DNA of 9,538 nucleotides from Pseudomonadota bacterium (GTDB taxonomy: Bacteria > Pseudomonadota > Gammaproteobacteria > Burkholderiales > Ferrovaceae). The DNA lies in the NCBI GenBank assembly GCA_021804345.1, contig JAJZHV010000031.1, forward strand, positions 1-9,538, in the 5' to 3' direction. Both the position numbers and the translations under genes were made by a program. Positions 1-9,538 of the stretch are shown piece by piece; the stretch's first letter is position 1, and every line of letters starts with the position of its first letter. The notes under the pieces were generated by a model. It saw nothing but the letters and a program-made list of their open reading frames with translations, was not told the DNA's origin and made no database searches.

Positions 1-2036
1 GTGGAAATCTGTTGTGAAATATCTGCCGCAGGGTACAGCTTATGCCCCAGTTTGACGCTGAAATTGGGCAGAAAGACGACCTTGATGCGCCCGTTGACAT
101 CGGGATCGCGATTGATGACCTCCCCGATGGCGGTGATGAGACGGATCATCAGTTTGGCCATGGCATAGCCCGGGGCCGCCTTGCCGCCAAATAGGAAGGT
201 GCGGGGCTGAAAATCCACATGCGGGTTGCGCTTGATGCGGTTGTACAGGGTGACGATGTACAGGGCGTTCAGATGCTGGCGCTTGTATTCGTGAATGCGT
301 TTGGCCTGGACATCAAACAGGGTGTCCGGGTCGATGAGCGTGTGGCAGAGTTGCCGCACGGTATCGGCCAAACGCGTCTTGCAGCGGCGTTTCATGTCGC
401 GCCATTGGTCCTGAAAGGCGCTATCTTCGGCAAAGCGTTCCAGTTGTCGCAGTTGAGTCAGGTCGCGTTCCCACTGGGTGCCGATGGTGTTGGTCAGCAG
501 TTGGGTGAGCCCCGGGTTGCTGAGCATGATGAAACGTCGCGGGGTGACGCCGTTGGTCTTGTTCTGGAATTTTTCCGGCCATAAGCGATAAAAGTCTTTC
601 AGGACGGTTTCCTGAAGCAGACGGCTGTGTAATTCCGCCACACCGTTGATCGCGTAGCTCCCCACACAGGCTAGATGGGCCATGCGCACATGACGGGCAC
701 CAGACTCGTCGATGATGGACAGGCGTTGGACCAGGCTTTCGTCAAAGGGAAAATGCATGCGCACCTCATCTAGAAAGCGCGCGTTGATTTCGTAAATAAT
801 TTCCAGATGCCTGGGCAGTATGCTTTCAAACAGGGCGATGGACCATTTTTCCAGGGCTTCGGGCAACAGGGTATGGTTGGTGTAGGCAAAGGTGTGACGG
901 GTAATCTGCCAGGCCTGGTCCCAATCCAGAAATTTCTTGTCCAGCAGCAAGCGCATCAATTCGGCCACGGCAATGGCCGGATGAGTGTCATTGAGTTGCA
1001 CCGTGAACTTTTGGTGGAAAGTGGAGAGGGGTTCGCCCGTGGAGAGGTGGATCCGCAGCATATCCTGCAGCGAGCAGGTGACAAAAAAGTGCTGTTGCAA
1101 CAGGCGCAGGCGTTTGCCGGTTTCCGGCTCGTCGTTGGGGTAGAGTACCTTGCTGATGGTTTCGGAGCGCACTTCGCGAGCCACAGCCCCGTAGTAGTCC
1201 CCCTGGTTGAACATGGTGAAATCGAATCCTTCTGCGGCCTCGGCAATCCATAGCCGCAGTACATTCACCGTATTGACGCGATGCCCCACAATGGGCGTAT
1301 CTACAGCCACTCCCATGAGGGTTTCGCTGGGAATCCATCGGGTGCGCAGGGCGCCGTCGTGGTCCTGGTACATTTCCGTATGTCCGCCCAGTTTGACTTC
1401 GCAGGAAATGTTGGGGCGCCGCACTTCCCAGGGGTTGCCGTAGCGCAACCAGTGGTCCGTCACCTCCACCTGTTCCCCATTCACTAGGGTTTGGTTAAAG
1501 ATGCCGAATTCGTAGCGGATGCCGTAGCTGATGGCAGGAATTTGCAACGTGGCCAGGGATTCCATGAAGCAGGCCGCCAGTCGTCCCAGGCCGCCATTGC
1601 CCAGTCCGGGTTCTTCCTCGTGCTCCAGCAACTCCTCCAGGTCTAGCCCCAGATTGGCCAAAGCCGCACGGGCATTGTCTTCAATGCCCAGATTAAGCAG
1701 GTTTTTACCCATGAAGGGGCCGGGCAGATATTCGGCCGAAAGGTAACAGACGGTACGCGGATTGCCTTCCTGGTAGGTGCGCACGGTGCTGACCCAACGC
1801 TGCAGCAGTCGGTCGCGCAGGGTGTAGGCCAGGGCCTTGAATTGATCGTCCCGGGAGGATACTTCCAGAAAGCGCCCCTGAACATAGAACAGATTGTCCA
1901 GAAACGCCTGCTGAATTGCCTCTACACCCAATCCGGTGCGAATGGATTCACTGGGGCGGTCTGACCGGGCACTGGGCACTGCCGCGTCCGCTGGGTGGGT
2001 GGCAGGGTCGGCGGGACGGGAGAAGGCGCTGGGCAT
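1..2036 (-). CDS. glgP: Glycogen/alpha-glucan phosphorylase (C-terminus beyond left edge)
   Basis: This cytoplasmic PLP enzyme (GT35) releases glucose-1-phosphate from glycogen or maltodextrin. Reading the minus strand gives 678 codons, open at the window edge. Visible landmarks are YLSAEYL near residue 100, GLGNGGLGRLAACF near 142-156, YGIRYEFGIF near 170, DHWLRYGNPW near 193, LNDTHP near 350, and HEYKRQ near 585. The last codons read PAADISQQIS, which in this family comes just before the EASGTGNMK-type block with the PLP lysine. So the cofactor lysine and about 150 C-terminal residues lie outside the window. The start is the ATG at 2036; an in-frame stop at 2060-2058 bounds it and a weak GAGAA precedes it. 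It begins 34 nt after the stop of the GGDEF-EAL gene on the same strand with no terminator seen, so co-transcription is likely. The assignment to the phosphorylase family is secure; the exact preferred glucan is not visible. Confidence 0.96.
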   Translation of the reverse strand, partial: MPSAFSRPADPATHPADAAVPSARSDRPSESIRTGLGVEAIQQAFLDNLFYVQGRFLEVSSRDDQFKALAYTLRDRLLQRWVSTVRTYQEGNPRTVCYLSAEYLPGPFMGKNLLNLGIEDNARAALANLGLDLEELLEHEEEPGLGNGGLGRLAACFMESLATLQIPAISYGIRYEFGIFNQTLVNGEQVEVTDHWLRYGNPWEVRRPNISCEVKLGGHTEMYQDHDGALRTRWIPSETLMGVAVDTPIVGHRVNTVNVLRLWIAEAAEGFDFTMFNQGDYYGAVAREVRSETISKVLYPNDEPETGKRLRLLQQHFFVTCSLQDMLRIHLSTGEPLSTFHQKFTVQLNDTHPAIAVAELMRLLLDKKFLDWDQAWQITRHTFAYTNHTLLPEALEKWSIALFESILPRHLEIIYEINARFLDEVRMHFPFDESLVQRLSIIDESGARHVRMAHLACVGSYAINGVAELHSRLLQETVLKDFYRLWPEKFQNKTNGVTPRRFIMLSNPGLTQLLTNTIGTQWERDLTQLRQLERFAEDSAFQDQWRDMKRRCKTRLADTVRQLCHTLIDPDTLFDVQAKRIHEYKRQHLNALYIVTLYNRIKRNPHVDFQPRTFLFGGKAAPGYAMAKLMIRLITAIGEVINRDPDVNGRIKVVFLPNFSVKLGHKLYPAADISQQIS

Positions 2037-2070
2037 GATGGGTTCTCGGCAGGGGGTTCATGGGCGGGGA

Positions 2071-4935
2071 TCAAAGCGCGGCAATCAAGGCGTTCAAAGC
2101 CTGCAGCAGTTCGTTGCGCAGGTCAAGTAGGTGGGGAATGGCGGCACGGGCGGCTTCCTGGGCGTTGTTGTGCTGCAGGTTGAACAGATTCTGGGCCAGC
2201 ACATGCACGGCTTCGTGCAATCGGTCGATGGTCTGAAACTCCGGTCGAGCAGCGTAATGAAGTCGGCCATTTCCCTGCAGCCATTCGCCAAAACTGCATT
2301 GACGGGGATCCAGAGGAGGAGCCAGTGTGGTTTCGTTTTCCAGACTCAGGATGACGGTATCCACCCAACGCCGGTGCCACACCTCGGCAAAGGCTAGGGC
2401 AATATCCTGACGGGTTAGGCGCTTGTTCAGCAGAGAGGCCCATTGCGCAGCGGGTCGGTAATGGCTAACCCATTCGGGAATCTGGTCTGCGGGCAGCGGT
2501 TTGGAAATCCCGTATCCTTGCGCGAGTTCACAACCCAGATACAGCAGAATGTTGCCATGGTCCACGGTTTCCATGCCCTCGGCGATCACTGCCTTCTGGA
2601 AGGCATCCGCCAGGCTGATGACGCCCTCCACGATGGACAGATCGTCCGCGTCATTGAGCATGTCGCGAATGAAATTCTGATCGATCTTGATGGTGTTGAC
2701 CGGTAACCGACGCAAGTAGGCCAGAGAAGCATAGCCGGTTCCAAAATCATCGATGGAAAACAGGACGCCGTAGCTGCGACATTCCGTCATGGTGCGCGTA
2801 ACCCGGGGAATATCCCACAGGGCCACGTTTTCCAGCACTTCCAGTTCCAGCCGTTCGGGCGGAATTTGCGGGTATTGGGCGATGAGGCCCGAAATGAAGG
2901 CGGAAAAACTGTCGGCATGCAGGTGTCGGGCCGGTAGATTGACGCTGACTGCCAACTCCAGTCCCTGTTCGTGCCACTGGGCCATTTGGCGCATGGCCTC
3001 ACGCAGTACCCATTCGGAAAGGCGGGTTTCCAGATCGGAGTTTTCCACAAGCGGCAGAAAGCCAGCCGGAGAAAGTAATCCTTGCTGGGGATGATTCCAA
3101 CGAATCAGGGCCTCCAGGCCCACCACCTTGCCGCTGCGCAGGTTGACCTTGGGCTGGTAGTGCAGAATGAATTCCTGGTTTTCCAGTGCGGTTTCGATCC
3201 GGGTTCGGCCTTCGGAGCGAATATGGGCCTTGCGATCATCCACCACATCAAAGAAATGAAACCGGTTACGCCCCGCTTCCTTGGCCAGATACATGGCCTG
3301 ATCTGCGTGCCGCAGCAGGGTTTCGGCATCCACATCGTCTTCGGGGTAGACCGTCACGCCCACACTGGCAGAAATCGTGATGAGAATGTTGTTCAGAGAA
3401 TAGGGGTGGGATAACACCGTCATGATACGGGTCAGTGTTTTGACAAACTCCTGCTCGCTGTCCAGTTCCGACAAAATCAGGATGAACTCGTCACCCCCCA
3501 GGCGGGCCACGGTATCGGTGGCGCGCAGGGTGCTGGTTAGCCGATGAGCAACTTCCTTGAGCAGTTGATCGCCCGTTTCATGCCCATGGGTATCATTCAC
3601 CGGCTTGAAATCATCCAGGTCGATGAAACAGACCGCCATTTTTCCCCCAGAACGGCGTGCGTCCGCCAGTGCCATGGACAGGCGATCATTGAGCAGGGCC
3701 CGATTGGGTAGCCCCGTCAGCGCGTCATGCAGCGCCATCAATTCCAATTCGGCCTGCTGCGCCTTGATGACGGAGATATCGGAGGAAATGCAGACGTAAC
3801 TGAGGGTTTCCCCATCGCTGTTGCGCACGACCGAAACCGTCAGTTTATCGGGGTAGATGTCGCCGTTTTTGCGTCGATTCCAGATTTCTCCCGACCAATG
3901 ACCCTCTTGCAGCAGACCCGCCCACATGTCCGCAAAGAAACGGGGTTCATGGCGCCCCGACTGCAGGATGTTGGGGTTTTGTCCCAGGACTTCCTCGCGG
4001 GTATAACCGGTGGTGCGGGTAAAGGCTGGGTTGACCTCCACGATGCGACCGTGGGGGTCGGTAACAAAAATGCTCTCGTCCGCATACAAAAACACCTGGG
4101 AGACCAAGCGCATGAAATCATCCGAGCTTTTGCGCTCGGTGATGTCGTTGATGATGGCCACATAGTGGGAGAGTGCCCCTTCCTGATCCTGGACGGGGGA
4201 GATCTGGAAGCGATTCCAGAACATCGTGCCATCCTTGCGATAGTTGCGCAGGGTGGCTTTCACAGCCTGGCCCTTTTGCAAGGCCGCGCGCAGGATTTTC
4301 AGGTCGGGTTGCTCGCGGTCAGTGCCCTGCAGAAAGCGGCAATTTTTGCCCAGGACTTCTTCCGAGCGATAACCCGTGATGCGTTCGAAGGCCGGATTGA
4401 CATAGATGAGGGGACTGTCCGGTTGCCGGGCATCGGAAATGGCGATGCCATTGACGCTGTTTTTTAGGGCATCGGCCTGAAGCCGGATCAGGTCTTCGGA
4501 CTGTTTGCGATGAGAGATGTCACGCGAGGAGCAAAACAGCAGAGGTTTGGAGTCCAGCAGAAAAGGCTTGATATGGACTTCTACTGGAATGAACTGTCCG
4601 TCCTTGCGGCGGTGAATGGTTTCGAAGGTGGCCTCATCAATGTGCAGAAACTCCTGAATGCGCTCGATGAGGACCTCTTGGGGCCACTTGGCATCCCAAT
4701 AGGCCACATGTTTGCCCAGTAATTCCGACCGGGTATACCCCAGAAGGGCACAGAAGGAGTCGCTCATTTCCAGCAGGTTGCCTTGCGGGTCGAGCACATG
4801 CAGGCCGTCGCTGGCAATTCGCAAAAGCGATTGCATCATGCTGGAATCGGAGAGCGTGGAGCGAGTCGTGGGGTGCGTTAGAGCGCTCGGTTGGGCCGAG
4901 GGTTTGTCCGGAGAAAATGGGCCAGCCACAATCAA
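2071..4935 (-). CDS. PAS-LOV-PAS-GGDEF-EAL-CZB cyclic-di-GMP sensor enzyme
   Basis: This 954-residue soluble protein should make and/or degrade c-di-GMP under several sensory inputs. Domains in order: PAS about 35-145; LOV-type PAS about 152-270 with GKNCRFLQ (Cys199) and flavin-contact asparagines 231 and 241; PAS about 275-395; GGDEF about 402-560; EAL about 575-825; CZB about 845-920. The GGDEF motif (480-484) is canonical and preceded by an RxxD inhibitory site (471-474). The EAL domain keeps Glu608, Asn666, Glu702, the DDFGTG loop (729-734), Lys750, Glu786 and Gln806, so both activities look possible. The CZB zinc set is His854, Cys880, His907 and His911. I see no membrane segment. The longest reading starts at TTG 4935, 10 nt after the upstream lipoprotein stop; a GTG at residue 3 and ATGs at residues 33 and 34 are alternatives and none has a clear ribosome site. 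Which activity dominates cannot be read from sequence. Confidence 0.95.
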   Translation of the reverse strand: MIVAGPFSPDKPSAQPSALTHPTTRSTLSDSSMMQSLLRIASDGLHVLDPQGNLLEMSDSFCALLGYTRSELLGKHVAYWDAKWPQEVLIERIQEFLHIDEATFETIHRRKDGQFIPVEVHIKPFLLDSKPLLFCSSRDISHRKQSEDLIRLQADALKNSVNGIAISDARQPDSPLIYVNPAFERITGYRSEEVLGKNCRFLQGTDREQPDLKILRAALQKGQAVKATLRNYRKDGTMFWNRFQISPVQDQEGALSHYVAIINDITERKSSDDFMRLVSQVFLYADESIFVTDPHGRIVEVNPAFTRTTGYTREEVLGQNPNILQSGRHEPRFFADMWAGLLQEGHWSGEIWNRRKNGDIYPDKLTVSVVRNSDGETLSYVCISSDISVIKAQQAELELMALHDALTGLPNRALLNDRLSMALADARRSGGKMAVCFIDLDDFKPVNDTHGHETGDQLLKEVAHRLTSTLRATDTVARLGGDEFILILSELDSEQEFVKTLTRIMTVLSHPYSLNNILITISASVGVTVYPEDDVDAETLLRHADQAMYLAKEAGRNRFHFFDVVDDRKAHIRSEGRTRIETALENQEFILHYQPKVNLRSGKVVGLEALIRWNHPQQGLLSPAGFLPLVENSDLETRLSEWVLREAMRQMAQWHEQGLELAVSVNLPARHLHADSFSAFISGLIAQYPQIPPERLELEVLENVALWDIPRVTRTMTECRSYGVLFSIDDFGTGYASLAYLRRLPVNTIKIDQNFIRDMLNDADDLSIVEGVISLADAFQKAVIAEGMETVDHGNILLYLGCELAQGYGISKPLPADQIPEWVSHYRPAAQWASLLNKRLTRQDIALAFAEVWHRRWVDTVILSLENETTLAPPLDPRQCSFGEWLQGNGRLHYAARPEFQTIDRLHEAVHVLAQNLFNLQHNNAQEAARAAIPHLLDLRNELLQALNALIAAL
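2176..2403 (-). other. CZB (chemoreceptor zinc-binding) domain at C-terminus of the GGDEF-EAL protein
   Basis: After the EAL domain, residues about 845-920 show the CZB layout. There is a first helix with WHRRW (His854), then QCSFGEWL (Cys880), then HEAVH (His907, His911). This 3His/1Cys set is the zinc site known from chemoreceptors and from the diguanylate cyclase DgcZ, where CZB sits at the N-terminus. The domain is therefore likely to let zinc, or cysteine oxidation, tune c-di-GMP turnover. The remaining residues to 954 are predicted helical with no further motif recognised. Confidence 0.8.
4126..4482 (-). other. LOV photosensor domain within the GGDEF-EAL protein (Gln replaced by Ile)
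   Basis: Residues about 152-270 match the bacterial LOV pattern: YVNPAFERITGY, then GKNCRFLQG, then NYRKDGTMFWN, then HYVAIINDIT. Cys199 is the residue that in LOV proteins forms the flavin-C4a adduct under blue light; Arg200, Gln203, Asn231 and Asn241 match flavin-contacting positions of YtvA/phototropin LOV domains. The position of the conserved glutamine on the last strand (GIQNDIT in YtvA) is Ile262, codon ATC at 4152-4150. FMN binding is inferred from these motifs. Confidence 0.82.
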
Positions 4936-5143: not shown

Positions 5144-5175
5144 TGGATCCACCTTCCCCCTGATTTTAATTACCC

Positions 5176-5204
5176 ATTATAACGGTCTGCAGGGGTTTTG
5201 TAAT
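5176..5204 (-). promoter_or_regulatory. Sigma70-type promoter for the lipoprotein/GGDEF-EAL/glgP unit
   Basis: On the minus strand a perfect TATAAT -10 box (5181-5176) lies 17 bp downstream of ATTACA (5204-5199), a 4 of 6 match to TTGACA. Transcription would start near 5169, giving a leader of about 25 nt before ATG 5143 that contains the AAGGTGG ribosome site. This is the clearest housekeeping promoter in the window. Confidence 0.7.
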
Positions 5205-5240
5205 CTTCCGGACATGTAACCATCTGTTGATGCCCAGGGG

Positions 5241-5269
5241 TTGTCATGTATTCGTCATCCGAGCGTCAC
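5241..5269 (+). promoter_or_regulatory. Putative triple Pho box (PhoB binding site)
   Basis: Three direct repeats TTGTCAT, TCGTCAT and GCGTCAC begin at 5241, 5252 and 5263, so the GTCA cores at 5243, 5254 and 5265 are phased exactly 11 bp. The known Pho box consists of CTGTCAT-type heptamers each followed by a 4-bp spacer, the same 11-bp period. The first repeat matches 6 of 7 positions and the others keep the GTCA core. Repeats point towards the plus-strand phospholipase gene, the orientation expected for PhoB activation. A -10 is not clear; CACAAT (5267-5272) or CACTAT (5283-5288) are weak candidates. Confidence 0.62.
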
Positions 5270-5377
5270 AATTTGGACATGCCACTATGGCTTACTGCAC
5301 GGGTTCCATTCAAGGTACATGCCGCTTGCCCGCTACAGTCCTGACACCCGATTCGCCCGCCTGTGTTGCAAAAACGC

Positions 5378-5383
5378 AAGAGG
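5378..5383 (+). promoter_or_regulatory. Ribosome binding site deciding the PlcP-like start
   Basis: AAGAGG lies 8 nt before the TTG at 5392, exactly where the conserved phosphoesterase fold begins. Longer in-frame starts (TTG 5227, ATG 5230) lie upstream of the putative Pho box and so would not be in the transcript. ATG 5287 would be within a few bases of the expected transcription start. Confidence 0.5.
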
Positions 5384-5391
5384 TGGCCCCC

Positions 5392-6162
5392 TTGCCCGCG
5401 CTGCGGGCCATCTGGATTTCTGATCTCCATTTGGGTACTGCAGGGTGTCAGGCGCAGTACCTCCTGGACTTTTTACGCGTGCATGAATCCGAAACCCTTT
5501 TTTTGGTGGGCGATATTCTGGATGGCTGGCAACTGCGCAAGGGTTGGTACTGGCCCCAGTCCCATAATGACGTGGTGCAGAAATTGTTGCGCAAGGCGCG
5601 CAAGGGAACGCGGGTGGTGTATGTCCCGGGAAATCATGACGAACTAGCTCGACAGTTTGACGGTCTGGCCTTTGGGGACATCGAGGTCCGAAGCGAAGCC
5701 TTTCATACGCTGAAGGATGGACGCCGATTGTGGGTGGTGCATGGCGACCTGTTTGACGGGGTAACCCAGCATGCACGTTGGTTGGCCTATCTGGGCGATT
5801 CGCTCTACACCCTCATTCTCAAATTCAATCAGTGGTTCAATGCGGCCCGGGCGCGTCTGGGTATGCCCTATTGGTCTGTGTCTCAATACCTCAAGCATCA
5901 GGTCAAGAACGCGGTCAATTATATGGCCGCCTTCGAGCGGGTGATGGTGGATGAAGCCAGGCGTCGGGGCTGTCAGGGCGTGGTGTGTGGGCATATTCAC
6001 AAGGCCGAGATTCGCGATATTGAAGGCATGCTCTATTGCAACGATGGGGACTGGGTGGAAAGCCTGACCGCTCTGGTGGAAACCCAGGCTGGAGAGTTAT
6101 GCATTCTGCAGTGGCCCCAGGGGACCCGGTTGATGGTGGAGCAGAGGCTGGCCGTGACCTGA
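5392..6162 (+). CDS. plcP: PlcP-like metallophosphoesterase (phospholipase C / LpxH-like family)
   Basis: A two-metal calcineurin-like phosphoesterase of about 256 residues, usually auto-annotated as UDP-2,3-diacylglucosamine hydrolase. In numbering from TTG 5392 the metal motifs are SDLH (Asp11, His13), GDILD (Asp41), GNHDE (Asn81, His82), HGD (His117) and GHIH (His201, His203). The GNHDE and GHIH forms differ from true LpxH, which has GNRDF and GHTHRP. Together with the glycosyltransferase next door, this points to the PlcP group. PlcP, first shown in Sinorhizobium meliloti, cleaves phospholipid head groups to diacylglycerol during phosphate starvation. There is no signal peptide or membrane segment, so action at the inner cytoplasmic leaflet is inferred. 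An upstream frame extension to 5227 is open but looks non-coding and starts before the Pho-like repeats. ATG 5287 is an alternative start. The family is certain; the substrate is inferred from context. Confidence 0.88.
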   Translation: MPALRAIWISDLHLGTAGCQAQYLLDFLRVHESETLFLVGDILDGWQLRKGWYWPQSHNDVVQKLLRKARKGTRVVYVPGNHDELARQFDGLAFGDIEVRSEAFHTLKDGRRLWVVHGDLFDGVTQHARWLAYLGDSLYTLILKFNQWFNAARARLGMPYWSVSQYLKHQVKNAVNYMAAFERVMVDEARRRGCQGVVCGHIHKAEIRDIEGMLYCNDGDWVESLTALVETQAGELCILQWPQGTRLMVEQRLAVT

Positions 6163-6256
6163 CCTGACCGAAACCCGCCCGGAGCGGCTCTGCGCTCATT
6201 GCGCCCATCCTCTGGCGGCACTAGAGCACAAACCTAACGTAAGGAGTAAGGCGACA

Positions 6257-7318
6257 ATGAAGATCATGGTGGTGACCGATGCGTGGGACCCTCAAGTTAA
6301 TGGTGTGGTGCGCACACTCAAAAACACCTGCAAGGAACTGGACGCCTTGGGCCATTCGGTGTCGATGATCAGCCCCCAGTCCTTCCGGACCATTCCCTGC
6401 CCCACCTATCCGGATATTCGTTTGTCCCTGTTTCCGGGGCGTGCCGTCGCCGCGCAACTGGATCGGGCTGCACCGGATGCCCTGCATATCGCCACCGAGG
6501 GACCGCTGGGCATGGCTGCTCGCGCATGGGCTATCCGGCATGACTTCCCCTTTACCACGGCGTACCATACGCGTTTTCCGGAATATGTGCGGGCGCGCTT
6601 TGCCTTCCCCCTGGACTGGACCTACCGCTTTTTGCGCTGGTTTCACGGACCCTCCCAGGCGGTGATGACGCCCACCCCGGTGGTGATGGCTGATCTGGTG
6701 CGGTATGGGTTCAGCAATGTGGTACTGTGGGGGCGAGGAGTGGATTTGGATGTGTTCAAACCCCAGTCGGTTCAATGCCTGAATACCCGGCCGCCTATTT
6801 TTTTGTATGTGGGACGCGTGGCCGTGGAAAAAAACGTGGAGGCTTTCTTGCAACTGGATCTTCCGGGTTCCAAATGGGTGGCTGGCGCGGGTCCGGCCAT
6901 GGCACAGGTTCGCCAGCGCTATCCTGAGGTCCATTTTCTGGGTGTGTTGAATCAACCGCAACTGGCCGAGGTCTATGCCTCGGCGGATGTTTTTGTATTT
7001 CCCAGCAAAACCGACACTTTTGGACTGGTGCTGCTGGAGGCTCTGGCCTGTGGCTGTCCCGTGGCGGCCTATCCGGTCACCGGACCCCTGGATGTCATTG
7101 GCGAGTCAGGGGCGGGCGTATTGCAGGAGGATTTGCGTGCGGCTTGTTTGCAGGCCTTGAACATCCCTCGGGCCCGGGCCCGGGCCCATGCGGAAACTTT
7201 TTCCTGGCGTGCCTCCACGTTGCAGTTTCTTCATCACCTCAGTCCGCGTTCCACCCCCACTACCCCTACCACACCCTCTTCGCAGGAGCACCTGGCTGTT
7301 GAACCCCTCTCGTTCTGA
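6257..7318 (+). CDS. agt: Family 4 glycosyltransferase, Agt-like glycolipid synthase
   Basis: A 353-residue GT-B fold retaining glycosyltransferase. The N-terminal acceptor half has the GT4 motif DPQVNGVVRT (11-20) and AYHTRFPEY (102-110), with GRGVDLDVF (159-167) at the linker. The donor half has YVGRVAVEKN (184-193), FPSKTDTFGLVLLEAL (248-263) and GPLDVIG. The donor-binding E-x7-E is Asp253-x7-Glu261, an acidic first position seen as SKTDTFG in this subgroup. The subgroup includes Agt and SqdX-type enzymes that transfer sugars to diacylglycerol to make glyco- or glucuronosyl lipids. The start ATG 6257 has AAGGAG 10 nt upstream and a second AAGG closer. It follows the PlcP-like gene by 94 nt and its end overlaps dgkA, fitting conversion of PlcP-released diacylglycerol into phosphorus-free lipid. 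The C-terminal tail (331-353) is Pro/Thr/Ser-rich and not conserved fold. The sugar donor cannot be read. A mannosyltransferase acting on phosphatidylinositol-like lipid is a less likely alternative. Confidence 0.86.
   Translation: MKIMVVTDAWDPQVNGVVRTLKNTCKELDALGHSVSMISPQSFRTIPCPTYPDIRLSLFPGRAVAAQLDRAAPDALHIATEGPLGMAARAWAIRHDFPFTTAYHTRFPEYVRARFAFPLDWTYRFLRWFHGPSQAVMTPTPVVMADLVRYGFSNVVLWGRGVDLDVFKPQSVQCLNTRPPIFLYVGRVAVEKNVEAFLQLDLPGSKWVAGAGPAMAQVRQRYPEVHFLGVLNQPQLAEVYASADVFVFPSKTDTFGLVLLEALACGCPVAAYPVTGPLDVIGESGAGVLQEDLRAACLQALNIPRARARAHAETFSWRASTLQFLHHLSPRSTPTTPTTPSSQEHLAVEPLSF
7169..7187. repeat. Tandem GGGCCC hexamer, three copies
   Basis: A self-complementary GC tract of three GGGCCC units within the glycosyltransferase gene encodes Arg-Ala-Arg-Ala-Arg-Ala. 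It is in frame and coding, but as a slippage-prone tandem repeat it could vary in copy number between strains. Confidence 0.6.
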
Positions 7319-7682
7319 AAGCCCCTTCAAGGGAAAAACGGGTTTTACCCGCATCTGGAATGCTTTGGGCTATTCCATTGCGGGATGCCAGGATGCTTGG
7401 CGGCACGAAAGCGCCTTTCGCCAGGAGGTTCTGCTGGCCCTGGTGCTGACGCCTGTTTCCCTGTGGTTGCCGGCCACGGGGGTAGGACATGCGCTCATGA
7501 TCAGCAGTTTGTTGCTGGTGCTGTTGGTGGAATTGCTCAATTCTGCTGTGGAGGCCACGGTGGATCGCATTTCTCTGGAAAACCACCGCTTGGCCAAGCG
7601 GGCCAAAGATATTGGCAGTGCGGCGGTGTTGATCAGCCTGCTCAATGTGCTGGTGGTATGGGCTTGCGTGGTGTTTTTTTGA
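7299..7682 (+). CDS. dgkA: Diacylglycerol kinase
   Basis: A small integral inner-membrane kinase of 127 residues that phosphorylates diacylglycerol to phosphatidic acid. It has GFTRIWNALGYS at the N-terminus and three predicted membrane helices. Key residues align with the E. coli enzyme: Glu37 (HESAFRQE), Glu78, Asn81 and Glu85 in VELLNSAVEATVDR, and Lys103-Asp104 in RAKDIGSAAVLI. I chose TTG 7299 because AGGAG lies 10 nt upstream and the length matches the family (about 120-130). An open extension back to 7188 is just the glycosyltransferase gene read in another frame. The start lies 20 nt inside the end of the glycosyltransferase gene, so translational coupling is likely. In this operon it would recycle diacylglycerol left by the PlcP-like enzyme, in competition with the Agt-like enzyme. 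The last 41 bp overlap the opposite-strand EamA gene. Confidence 0.95.
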   Translation: MNPSRSESPFKGKTGFTRIWNALGYSIAGCQDAWRHESAFRQEVLLALVLTPVSLWLPATGVGHALMISSLLLVLLVELLNSAVEATVDRISLENHRLAKRAKDIGSAAVLISLLNVLVVWACVVFF

Positions 7683-8736: not shown

Positions 8737-9036
8737 ATGTGGTCCCGCTGGCTTTTTTGGGGCTTTCTGATCTGGCTGGCCTGGCGCTGGGGGTCTCCCA
8801 TTCTGGCGCGCTTGCGCCAGGATTCTGCGCCTGGGCCAACCCCCCGGGCCCCTCCGCCCGGATCGGTTGATCCGGGCGCTGGCAGCGCGGCTTCGGCTTC
8901 ACCCTCGGGGACGGAGGCGTTTCAGGAGATGGTGCGCTGTGCGCGCTGTGGCGTGTATACCCTGCGCAGTGAATCCTATTTGCAAGGGCAACAGTTTTAC
9001 TGTTGCGACGAGCATCGCCGTGCTGGAGCGCGCTGA
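8737..9036 (+). CDS. PP0621-family small membrane-anchored zinc-finger protein
   Basis: A 99-residue protein of unknown function. It has one N-terminal, tryptophan-rich membrane segment (about 2-20), then a Pro/Gly/Ala/Ser-rich linker (about 30-60). The C-terminal metal-binding knuckle reads VRCARCGVYTLRSES, then FYCCDEH. Candidate zinc ligands are Cys68, Cys71, Cys89 or Cys90, and His93. This layout matches the PP0621 family of proteobacteria. With a single short helix and no signal cleavage site, the zinc knuckle probably faces the cytoplasm, though topology is inferred. ATG 8737 is chosen over the TTG two codons upstream; no clear ribosome site precedes either. Its end overlaps the ampD start by 17 nt, suggesting coupled expression. 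Confidence 0.82.
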   Translation: MWSRWLFWGFLIWLAWRWGSPILARLRQDSAPGPTPRAPPPGSVDPGAGSAASASPSGTEAFQEMVRCARCGVYTLRSESYLQGQQFYCCDEHRRAGAR

Positions 9037-9538
9037 CCTCTTGCCGGCCTTTGCGGTGGGGGCAGGGGGCTGGGTGCCCCGTGCGCAGTGGGTGCCCTCT
9101 CCCCATTGTGACGCCCGCCCTGTGGGGCAACCGATTTCTCTGGTGGTGATACACGCCATCAGTCTTCCCCCCGGCGTCTTTGGCGGACCGGATGTGTTGC
9201 GTCTATTCAGCCACCAGCTTGATGCCACAGTCCGTCCAGAGTACGAAACCTTGCAAGGCTTGCAGGTGTCGGCGCATTTTTTTATACGGCGCCGGGGCGA
9301 ATTGATCCAATGCGTGTCCTGCGACCAACGCGCCTGGCATGCCGGTGTGTCCCAGTGGCGTGGACGCAGTCAGTGCAATGCCTGGTCCCTGGGAATCGAG
9401 CTGGAAGGCACTGATCGGGTTCCCTTTACCCTGGAACAATACCAAACTTTGGAGGCACTGCTGCGCGGGCTGGCTCAGCGCTATCCCCTGCGTGAGGTGG
9501 TGGGACATGAGCATATTGCGCCCGGGCGCAAGACCGAT
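9020..9538 (+). CDS. ampD: 1,6-anhydro-N-acetylmuramyl-L-alanine amidase AmpD (C-terminus beyond right edge)
   Basis: This cytosolic zinc amidase cleaves the stem peptide from 1,6-anhydro-muropeptides in cell-wall recycling. By controlling those muropeptides it can also influence AmpR-type beta-lactamase induction where such a system exists. Visible motifs closely follow E. coli AmpD: WVPSPHCDARP (24-34), VVIHAISLPPG with zinc ligand His45, VSAHFFIRR, RAWHAGVSQWRGR, IELEGTD, and GHEHIAPGRKTD. In the last motif His163 is the second zinc ligand, Lys171 is catalytic, and the third ligand Asp173 is the last codon of the window. All three zinc ligands are therefore present and only a short tail is missing. 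The GTG start at 9020 overlaps the preceding gene; GTG 9056 is an alternative nearer to the E. coli N-terminus. No strong ribosome site separates them. Confidence 0.95.
   Translation, partial: MLERADLLPAFAVGAGGWVPRAQWVPSPHCDARPVGQPISLVVIHAISLPPGVFGGPDVLRLFSHQLDATVRPEYETLQGLQVSAHFFIRRRGELIQCVSCDQRAWHAGVSQWRGRSQCNAWSLGIELEGTDRVPFTLEQYQTLEALLRGLAQRYPLREVVGHEHIAPGRKTD

Follow-up and report, generated by a model that had tools for sequence, protein, structure and literature searches.

A predicted phosphate-starvation lipid-remodelling operon of Ferrovaceae joins dgkA to plcP and agt

What becomes of the diacylglycerol (DAG) that would be released when a phosphate-starved bacterium takes apart its phospholipids? 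The question is raised by a 9,538-bp stretch of a Ferrovaceae genome (contig JAJZHV010000031.1 of assembly GCA_021804345.1; hereafter the window), in which genes resembling plcP and agt are followed by dgkA, for a DAG kinase. The genome (1.17 Mb, 70% complete) is labelled G000 in the surveys below and the window lies on its contig C179. Lipid remodelling by PlcP and Agt is established (PMC4796936, PMC8528852, PMC9239053). We consider it probable that the three genes form a single phosphate-starvation operon. PlcP would strip the head groups off membrane phospholipids and leave DAG, Agt would cap DAG with glucose to give a glucolipid, and DgkA would phosphorylate the unused DAG back to phosphatidic acid, which would keep DAG low and allow a return to phospholipids when the supply of phosphate or UDP-sugar changes. 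We infer from sequence the phospholipase, glucosyltransferase and kinase activities, and likewise which way flux runs through DgkA.

An earlier note, made from the letters of the window, had described a metallophosphoesterase, a GT4 glycosyltransferase (GT) and DgkA in this order on one strand, the last two genes overlapping, behind Pho-box-like repeats; all of these elements were found (Table 1). The Pfam domains scored over their cut-offs (Metallophos, 45.4 bits; Glyco_transf_4, 87.0 bits; DAGK_prokar, 117.6 bits). The metallophosphoesterase frame is open over 5170-6162 on the + strand, with candidate starts at ATG 5287, GTG 5383 or TTG 5392 and homology from about 5401; its motifs lie at 5419 (SDLH), 5509 (GDILDGW), 5629 (GNHD), 5737 (VHGD) and 5989 (GHIH). 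The GT4 gene, separated from plcP by 94 bp, is preceded by AAGGAG and encodes TDTFGLVLLE at 7010. Read from its TTG start, dgkA overlaps the end of agt, including the stop codon, by 20 bases (7299-7318).

Table 1. Coordinates of the predicted elements of the window, and of the fused frames found in SAR116 loci.
Feature	Position	Strand	Remarks
Pho-box-like direct repeats	5241..5280	+	Four 7-mers, 11-bp period; comparable repeats at orthologues, kept in same-genus genome G150
plcP-like gene, predicted phospholipase C type phosphodiesterase	5287..6162	+	Five-block metallophosphoesterase motif with GNH; relatives mostly annotated LpxH
agt-like GT4 gene, predicted UDP-glucose:diacylglycerol glucosyltransferase	6257..7318	+	Pfam GT4; 50% identity to Agt1
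dgkA, prokaryotic diacylglycerol kinase	7299..7682	+	PF01219, 117.6 bits; 3ze3, 112.5 bits; TTG start
SAR116 Agt-DgkA frames, directly after plcP	L225:2986-4386, L226:5762-7162, L228:5762-7165, L231:4066-5466

By sequence comparison the product of the first gene is of the PlcP type and not LpxH. It shared 56% identity with a PlcP orthologue of Sinorhizobium meliloti (over 240 amino acids, aa) and 53% with P. aeruginosa PlcP (over 233 aa), against 23% with the LpxH of its own genome; the two references were 46.6% identical to each other. The S. meliloti reference (L109) is a 281-aa protein encoded near acyl-homoserine lactone (AHL)-synthase and LuxR genes, a neighbourhood that we take to be the S. 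meliloti plcP locus. It was used as PlcP because of this context and because its length is that published for LpxH2 of S. meliloti (281 aa, and 270 aa in P. aeruginosa; PMC3087551). The P. aeruginosa reference (L112) is a 270-aa protein followed by a glycosyltransferase and then by a cyclase-domain gene; the pair was taken as PA3219-PA3218 on the basis of gene context, length and the agreement of 46.6% with the 46% identity printed for PA3219 and S. meliloti PlcP (PMC8528852).

The window protein carries all five blocks of the motif D / GD / GNH(E/D) / H / GHXH, and its third block reads GNHD, not the GNR of LpxH. GNHD against GNRD is the published difference between LpxH2/PlcP and LpxH, and P. 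aeruginosa LpxH2 was unable to replace E. coli LpxH (PMC3087551). Scores against the LpxH models stayed below cut-off (TIGR01854, 31.8 bits for a cut-off of 190.35; NF003743, 39.2 bits for 134). A separate LpxH with the LpxH-type GNRD is encoded in the same genome at G000:C177:2115-2804 (251.4 bits, over the TIGR01854 cut-off of 190.35). LpxH was present in 48/48 sampled genomes with a clade-A PlcP (47 others and the window's own; the clade is defined below) and, at E 1e-20, in 142 of the 150 genomes sampled, 137 of them over the cut-off. A quick tree was built from 81 rows, with one LpxH row as outgroup, no LpxG row and several reference rows on long branches. The window protein fell in a 49-row clade, clade A (Shimodaira-Hasegawa-like approximate likelihood ratio test, SH-aLRT, 96), nested in a 59-row clade (100) with both PlcP references. 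A second Burkholderiales plcP-like subfamily (43-51% identity, L083-L106) lay mostly outside the 59-row clade, with four rows basal. GNHD was read in 78/81 rows; the others were the genome's own LpxH and a Thiodictyon protein, both GNRD, and L106, a fragment. The outcome that would have spoken against a PlcP, clustering with LpxH in a genome having no other lpxH, was thus not what was found: the protein groups apart from LpxH, and a genuine LpxH is encoded elsewhere. The suspicion that an LpxH label hides the role of such genes was borne out as well. The nearest named homologues include Ferrovum proteins (80% and 77% identity), and most of the source names shown for homologues read UDP-2,3-diacylglucosamine diphosphatase, hydrolase or LpxH.

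The GT4 protein has GT4 domains, is encoded next to plcP and is 50% identical to P. aeruginosa Agt1 over 337 aa, nearly its full length. Purified Agt1 uses UDP-glucose only and yields monoglucosyl-DAG, a product lost in the agt1 mutant (PMC8528852). From this relationship the sugar would be glucose, and glucosyl-DAG is the predicted product, given the specificity of Agt1 and the presence of GalU in the genome (373.6 bits).

The third gene is, by its sequence, an E. coli-type dgkA. PF01219 was matched over its cut-off, and the match to 3ze3 (Table 1) was the highest among solved DgkA chains. The motifs WRHE, VELLNS, EATVDR and AKD keep the active-site residues E, N, E, K and D of E. coli DgkA. 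No model of NCBIfam gave a match at E 0.001, and the gene in the window was the only DgkA match in the genome at its 70% completeness.

The repeats ahead of the operon comprise TTGTCAT (5241), TCGTCAT (5252), GCGTCAC (5263) and TGGACAT (5274), which resemble CTGTCAT and follow each other with an exact 11-bp period; the block is the best four-unit match in the window. Upstream regions of orthologues were surveyed for three 7-mers with 11-bp spacing in the 300 bp upstream of the homologous domain, with a threshold of 14 of 21. Repeats at or over threshold preceded 32/48 clade-A plcP genes, compared with 0/48 in-gene controls and 1.4% of first-order shuffles. Among the named loci (the best 80 of 584 relatives) the threshold was reached at 36/80, compared with 0/80 in genes and 0.9% of shuffles; by gene order, these were 18 of the 28 loci with the plcP-agt-dgkA trio and 18 of the 52 without it. 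Genome G150, of the same genus, has almost the same repeat block, with insertions and deletions in its flanks. The repeats of the window are convincing because orthologues carry comparable ones upstream and because the block is nearly unchanged in G150. PhoB is encoded in the window's genome (335.6 bits, cut-off 296.2). Repeats conserved upstream of orthologues, together with a PhoB gene, are the sequence hallmarks of a Pho regulon member, a case that is weak from the window alone, and the operon would accordingly be placed under PhoB and induced at low phosphate.

Linkage of dgkA to plcP was surveyed at 71 plcP loci from 69 other genomes of the window's order. A dgkA gene lay within about 8 kb of plcP at 12/71 loci (eight same-strand plcP-agt-dgkA loci, one divergent locus and three of the second subfamily), for which a rough estimate of the chance expectation, made from genome sizes, is well under one; agt stood beside plcP in 32/47 clade-A loci. 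In the same survey ppk1 was found within about 7 kb of plcP in 7/71 loci and ppx in 9/71. Within the window's family the trio was present in 6/6 genomes in which the region downstream of plcP is assembled (G000, G042, G087, G128, G152 and G155). The stretch fetched from G150 ends within agt, G154 holds a second-subfamily plcP only and no dgkA, and plcP was not found in G151 (83% complete) or G153 (85% complete). For 73 of the named loci at least 2.5 kb of downstream sequence was available; plcP was followed by a GT gene in 52 of these and the full trio was present in 28, so that it is not universal, with 22/24 Burkholderiaceae and 4/4 SAR116 loci having it. Cupriavidus necator carries the trio at L166. 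The genes are tightly packed: of 23 trio loci checked, 12 have a 4-base plcP/agt overlap, and in several members of the family the end of agt runs 20-26 bases into dgkA.

A single origin of the plcP-linked dgkA was rejected with 23 linked rows among 63 (approximately unbiased, AU, test, p 0.0095). It was not rejected with 13 linked rows among 52 (p 0.104) or with subsets of 9 (p 0.261) and 7 rows (p 0.38), nor for 19 clade-A same-strand trio rows and 16 core rows (p 0.117 and 0.167). Repeated recruitment of dgkA to plcP loci is suggested. Four genomes (G067, G076, G111 and G155) hold a linked dgkA and a second full-length or nearly full-length copy elsewhere, and the trio occurs without a match to OpgG in G152, which is 99% complete. 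A valve at DAG fits these second copies, the trio of G152 and a gene fusion found in SAR116.

At all four SAR116 loci, agt and dgkA form one frame of 467-468 aa, with the GT at residues 4-339 and DgkA at 344-463; in L225 and L226, where this was measured, the frame begins four bases before plcP ends. Both halves were matched in 119 of the 120 homologues listed, down to 61% identity, the exception being P0220 (372 aa, without DgkA). When 20 of the 120 homologues were aligned with the query, the motifs of both active sites proved invariant. Outside SAR116, where 118/398 genomes of the phylum were matched, no listed match spanned both halves without a stop; in two relatives of G031/G076 both halves lie in one frame with one stop between them. 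Long DgkA frames at L092, L113, L114 and L140 (549, 645, 609 and 381 aa) were also considered as fusions and rejected; they are read as chance open extensions, since no GT match was found in the frame. The SAR116 PlcP nests among betaproteobacterial PlcPs and not with that of S. meliloti (the tree was a quick one, drew long-branch warnings and had an outgroup that did not form one clade), and the SAR116 DgkA groups with Burkholderiaceae DgkA. These two placements suggest horizontal transfer.

The surroundings of the SAR116 module differed at each of the three loci examined, with phosphorus or arsenic genes at each: phnL and phnM (carbon-phosphorus lyase) and acr3 upstream in L226, acr3 about 2 kb downstream in L228, and ppk1 and ppx directly downstream in L231.

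Comparison with known systems sets the kinase gene apart. The plcP-agt1 pair of P. aeruginosa (PA3219-PA3218) shares plcP and agt with the window, in that order and with the frames adjacent in L112, and a Pho box has been reported upstream (PMC8528852). There, however, plcP and agt overlap by 4 bases in place of the 94-bp gap of the window, and agt is followed not by dgkA but by the adenylate/guanylate cyclase-domain gene on the other strand. S. meliloti PlcP is a GNH-type metallophosphoesterase like the window protein, yet neither agt nor dgkA is annotated in the 12.7-kb stretch around plcP in L109. Marine plcP neighbourhoods have been sorted into types 1-6, of which type 2 is plcP followed by agt, and putative Pho boxes were reported (PMC4796936); in the available main text of that article neither 'diacylglycerol kinase' nor 'dgk' occurs, and its section 13 describes no DAG kinase. 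In the available text of PMC13086504, dgkA stands only in a gene-screening table and plcP alone is discussed.

In the open-licence literature, two relevant reports bringing together PlcP and a DAG kinase were found, PMC10734472 and PMC5082522. In P. putida BIRD-1, PlcP and DagK were both enriched on phosphate depletion and the discussion calls them PHO-dependent; in the available portion of that article, no dagK-plcP linkage is described and the list of proteins missing from the phoBR mutant does not include DagK (PMC5082522). Flexible phosphate islands of HIMB59 list 'LpxH', a glycosyltransferase and a DAG kinase (DGK) together with pst, phoBR, ppk and ppx, and their authors regard LpxH as an enzyme of lipid A and see no direct function in P for the GT and DGK (PMC10734472). 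From the published gene names, we suggest that these three are the same trio. The PlcP-Agt pathway and the rise of a DAG kinase with PlcP at low phosphate in P. putida are thus already known (PMC5082522 for the latter, as far as its available text goes). What the sequences add is the kinase arm of PlcP-Agt, its recurrence and its fusion. A wider proposal sees in PlcP-Agt-DgkA a lipid-swap module of its own kind, which moves horizontally and has a built-in two-way valve at DAG. The bifunctional Agt-DgkA of SAR116 would then apportion each DAG to glucolipid or to phosphatidic acid, and the 'LpxH', glycosyltransferase and DGK of the marine islands would be this module misread; taken as a whole we put it forward tentatively, as somewhat more open to doubt than to belief.

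Several observations weigh against a phosphate-starvation operon with a dedicated kinase. When the whole window was shuffled, 8/200 shuffles reached the four-unit score of the repeats and 34/200 the three-unit score, and the expected number of two-unit matches with at most three mismatches is 0.72 per window; given the shuffle scores, the window by itself was considered too weak a basis for claiming a Pho box. Repeats at threshold were found in 8/23 second-subfamily loci, and the upstream regions of the four SAR116 loci (scores 12-13) are without a clear Pho box. The NCBIfam cut-offs were passed by none of PlcP, the GT and DgkA. The GNH/GNR rule has an exception, because the plasmid protein of Candidatus Thiodictyon (L111) reads GNRD and yet lies inside the PlcP clade. 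A dgkA near plcP was not seen in 38/47 clade-A loci and a GT at least 50% identical was not seen near plcP in 15/47; the loci scored without GT or dgkA include L042, L044, L070 and L074, which have less than 2 kb downstream. Rephosphorylation of DAG costs ATP and binds phosphate again, which seems counter-productive in starvation; buffering of toxic DAG, supply of anionic lipids or recovery on re-feeding are possible reasons for such spending.

The most credible alternative is that PlcP and Agt remodel lipids as published and dgkA is a passenger with a housekeeping task, the recycling of DAG from periplasmic glucan (Opg) or from lipid A decoration. The dgkA in the window is the sole one found in its genome, and OpgG/MdoG is present there and in 5/12 relatives, so that the single DgkA may serve glucan-linked recycling of DAG; dgkA lies only away from plcP in 46 of the 69 other plcP-bearing genomes and 11 have none. 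We hold this explanation to be unlikely, if still deserving of some weight: G152 has the trio without an OpgG match, the four genomes with a linked copy keep another one elsewhere, distant families share the gene order, and SAR116 has agt fused to dgkA. That fusion to a DAG kinase bears also on the acceptor of the GT4 enzyme, which might be an exopolysaccharide or lipopolysaccharide (LPS) intermediate, leaving PlcP and DgkA as the only enzymes acting on DAG. GT4 enzymes are diverse, and the best NCBIfam match of the window GT, GlcN-PG synthase, reached 82 bits where the cut-off is 480; its identity to Agt1 over nearly the full length and the position of agt beside plcP in about two-thirds of clade-A loci nevertheless make a non-DAG acceptor improbable. 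Least credible of all is that the first gene encodes the lipid A UDP-2,3-diacylglucosamine hydrolase LpxH and that the trio serves LPS or envelope synthesis. Homologues mostly bear that name and the two LpxH models do match, at 39 and 32 bits, but both scores are far under the cut-offs, the genuine GNRD enzyme is at G000:C177, LpxH2 of P. aeruginosa failed to stand in for E. coli lpxH (PMC3087551), and the tree places the protein with characterised PlcPs; the sequence largely contradicts this explanation. The reading of the locus as a lipid-remodelling operon, as the earlier note had proposed, is supported at this level by the PlcP and Agt identities, the conservation of the Pho box, the PhoB gene and the recurrent plcP-agt-dgkA linkage.

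Lipid swapping by PlcP and Agt lowers the phosphorus demand of bacteria and shapes phosphorus cycling, and the fate of surplus DAG is little treated in the available parts of the PlcP-Agt literature. A kinase that travels with PlcP-Agt, and is fused to the GT in SAR116, offers a concrete handle on whether remodelling is reversible, and recognition of the trio could correct 'LpxH' labels in the phosphate islands of ocean bacteria. The predicted pathway now also reaches the Ferrovum group, found in acid mine drainage. For Ferrovum JA12, Pho genes have been described and phosphate was below detection at the site; lipid remodelling is unmentioned in the available text of that report (PMC4725956).

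Homologues of PlcP were found in 5/50,697 phage records. One of them, in Pelagibacter phage Mosig EXVC030M (L248:3989-4726; 47% identity), is annotated as a UDP-2,3-diacylglucosamine hydrolase and adjoins a putative phosphate ABC transporter gene.

Elsewhere in the window, the frames at 3-2057 (-) and 8771-9538 (+) are open-ended and resemble by eye a glycogen phosphorylase and an AmpD-type amidase, respectively. A protein with multiple PAS domains, GGDEF, EAL and a C-terminal CZB zinc-binding domain, over cut-off, is encoded at 2071-4935 (-). It contains GKNCRFLQG, which we take to be a LOV-like motif, and is possibly a blue-light and zinc-linked cyclic-di-GMP enzyme.

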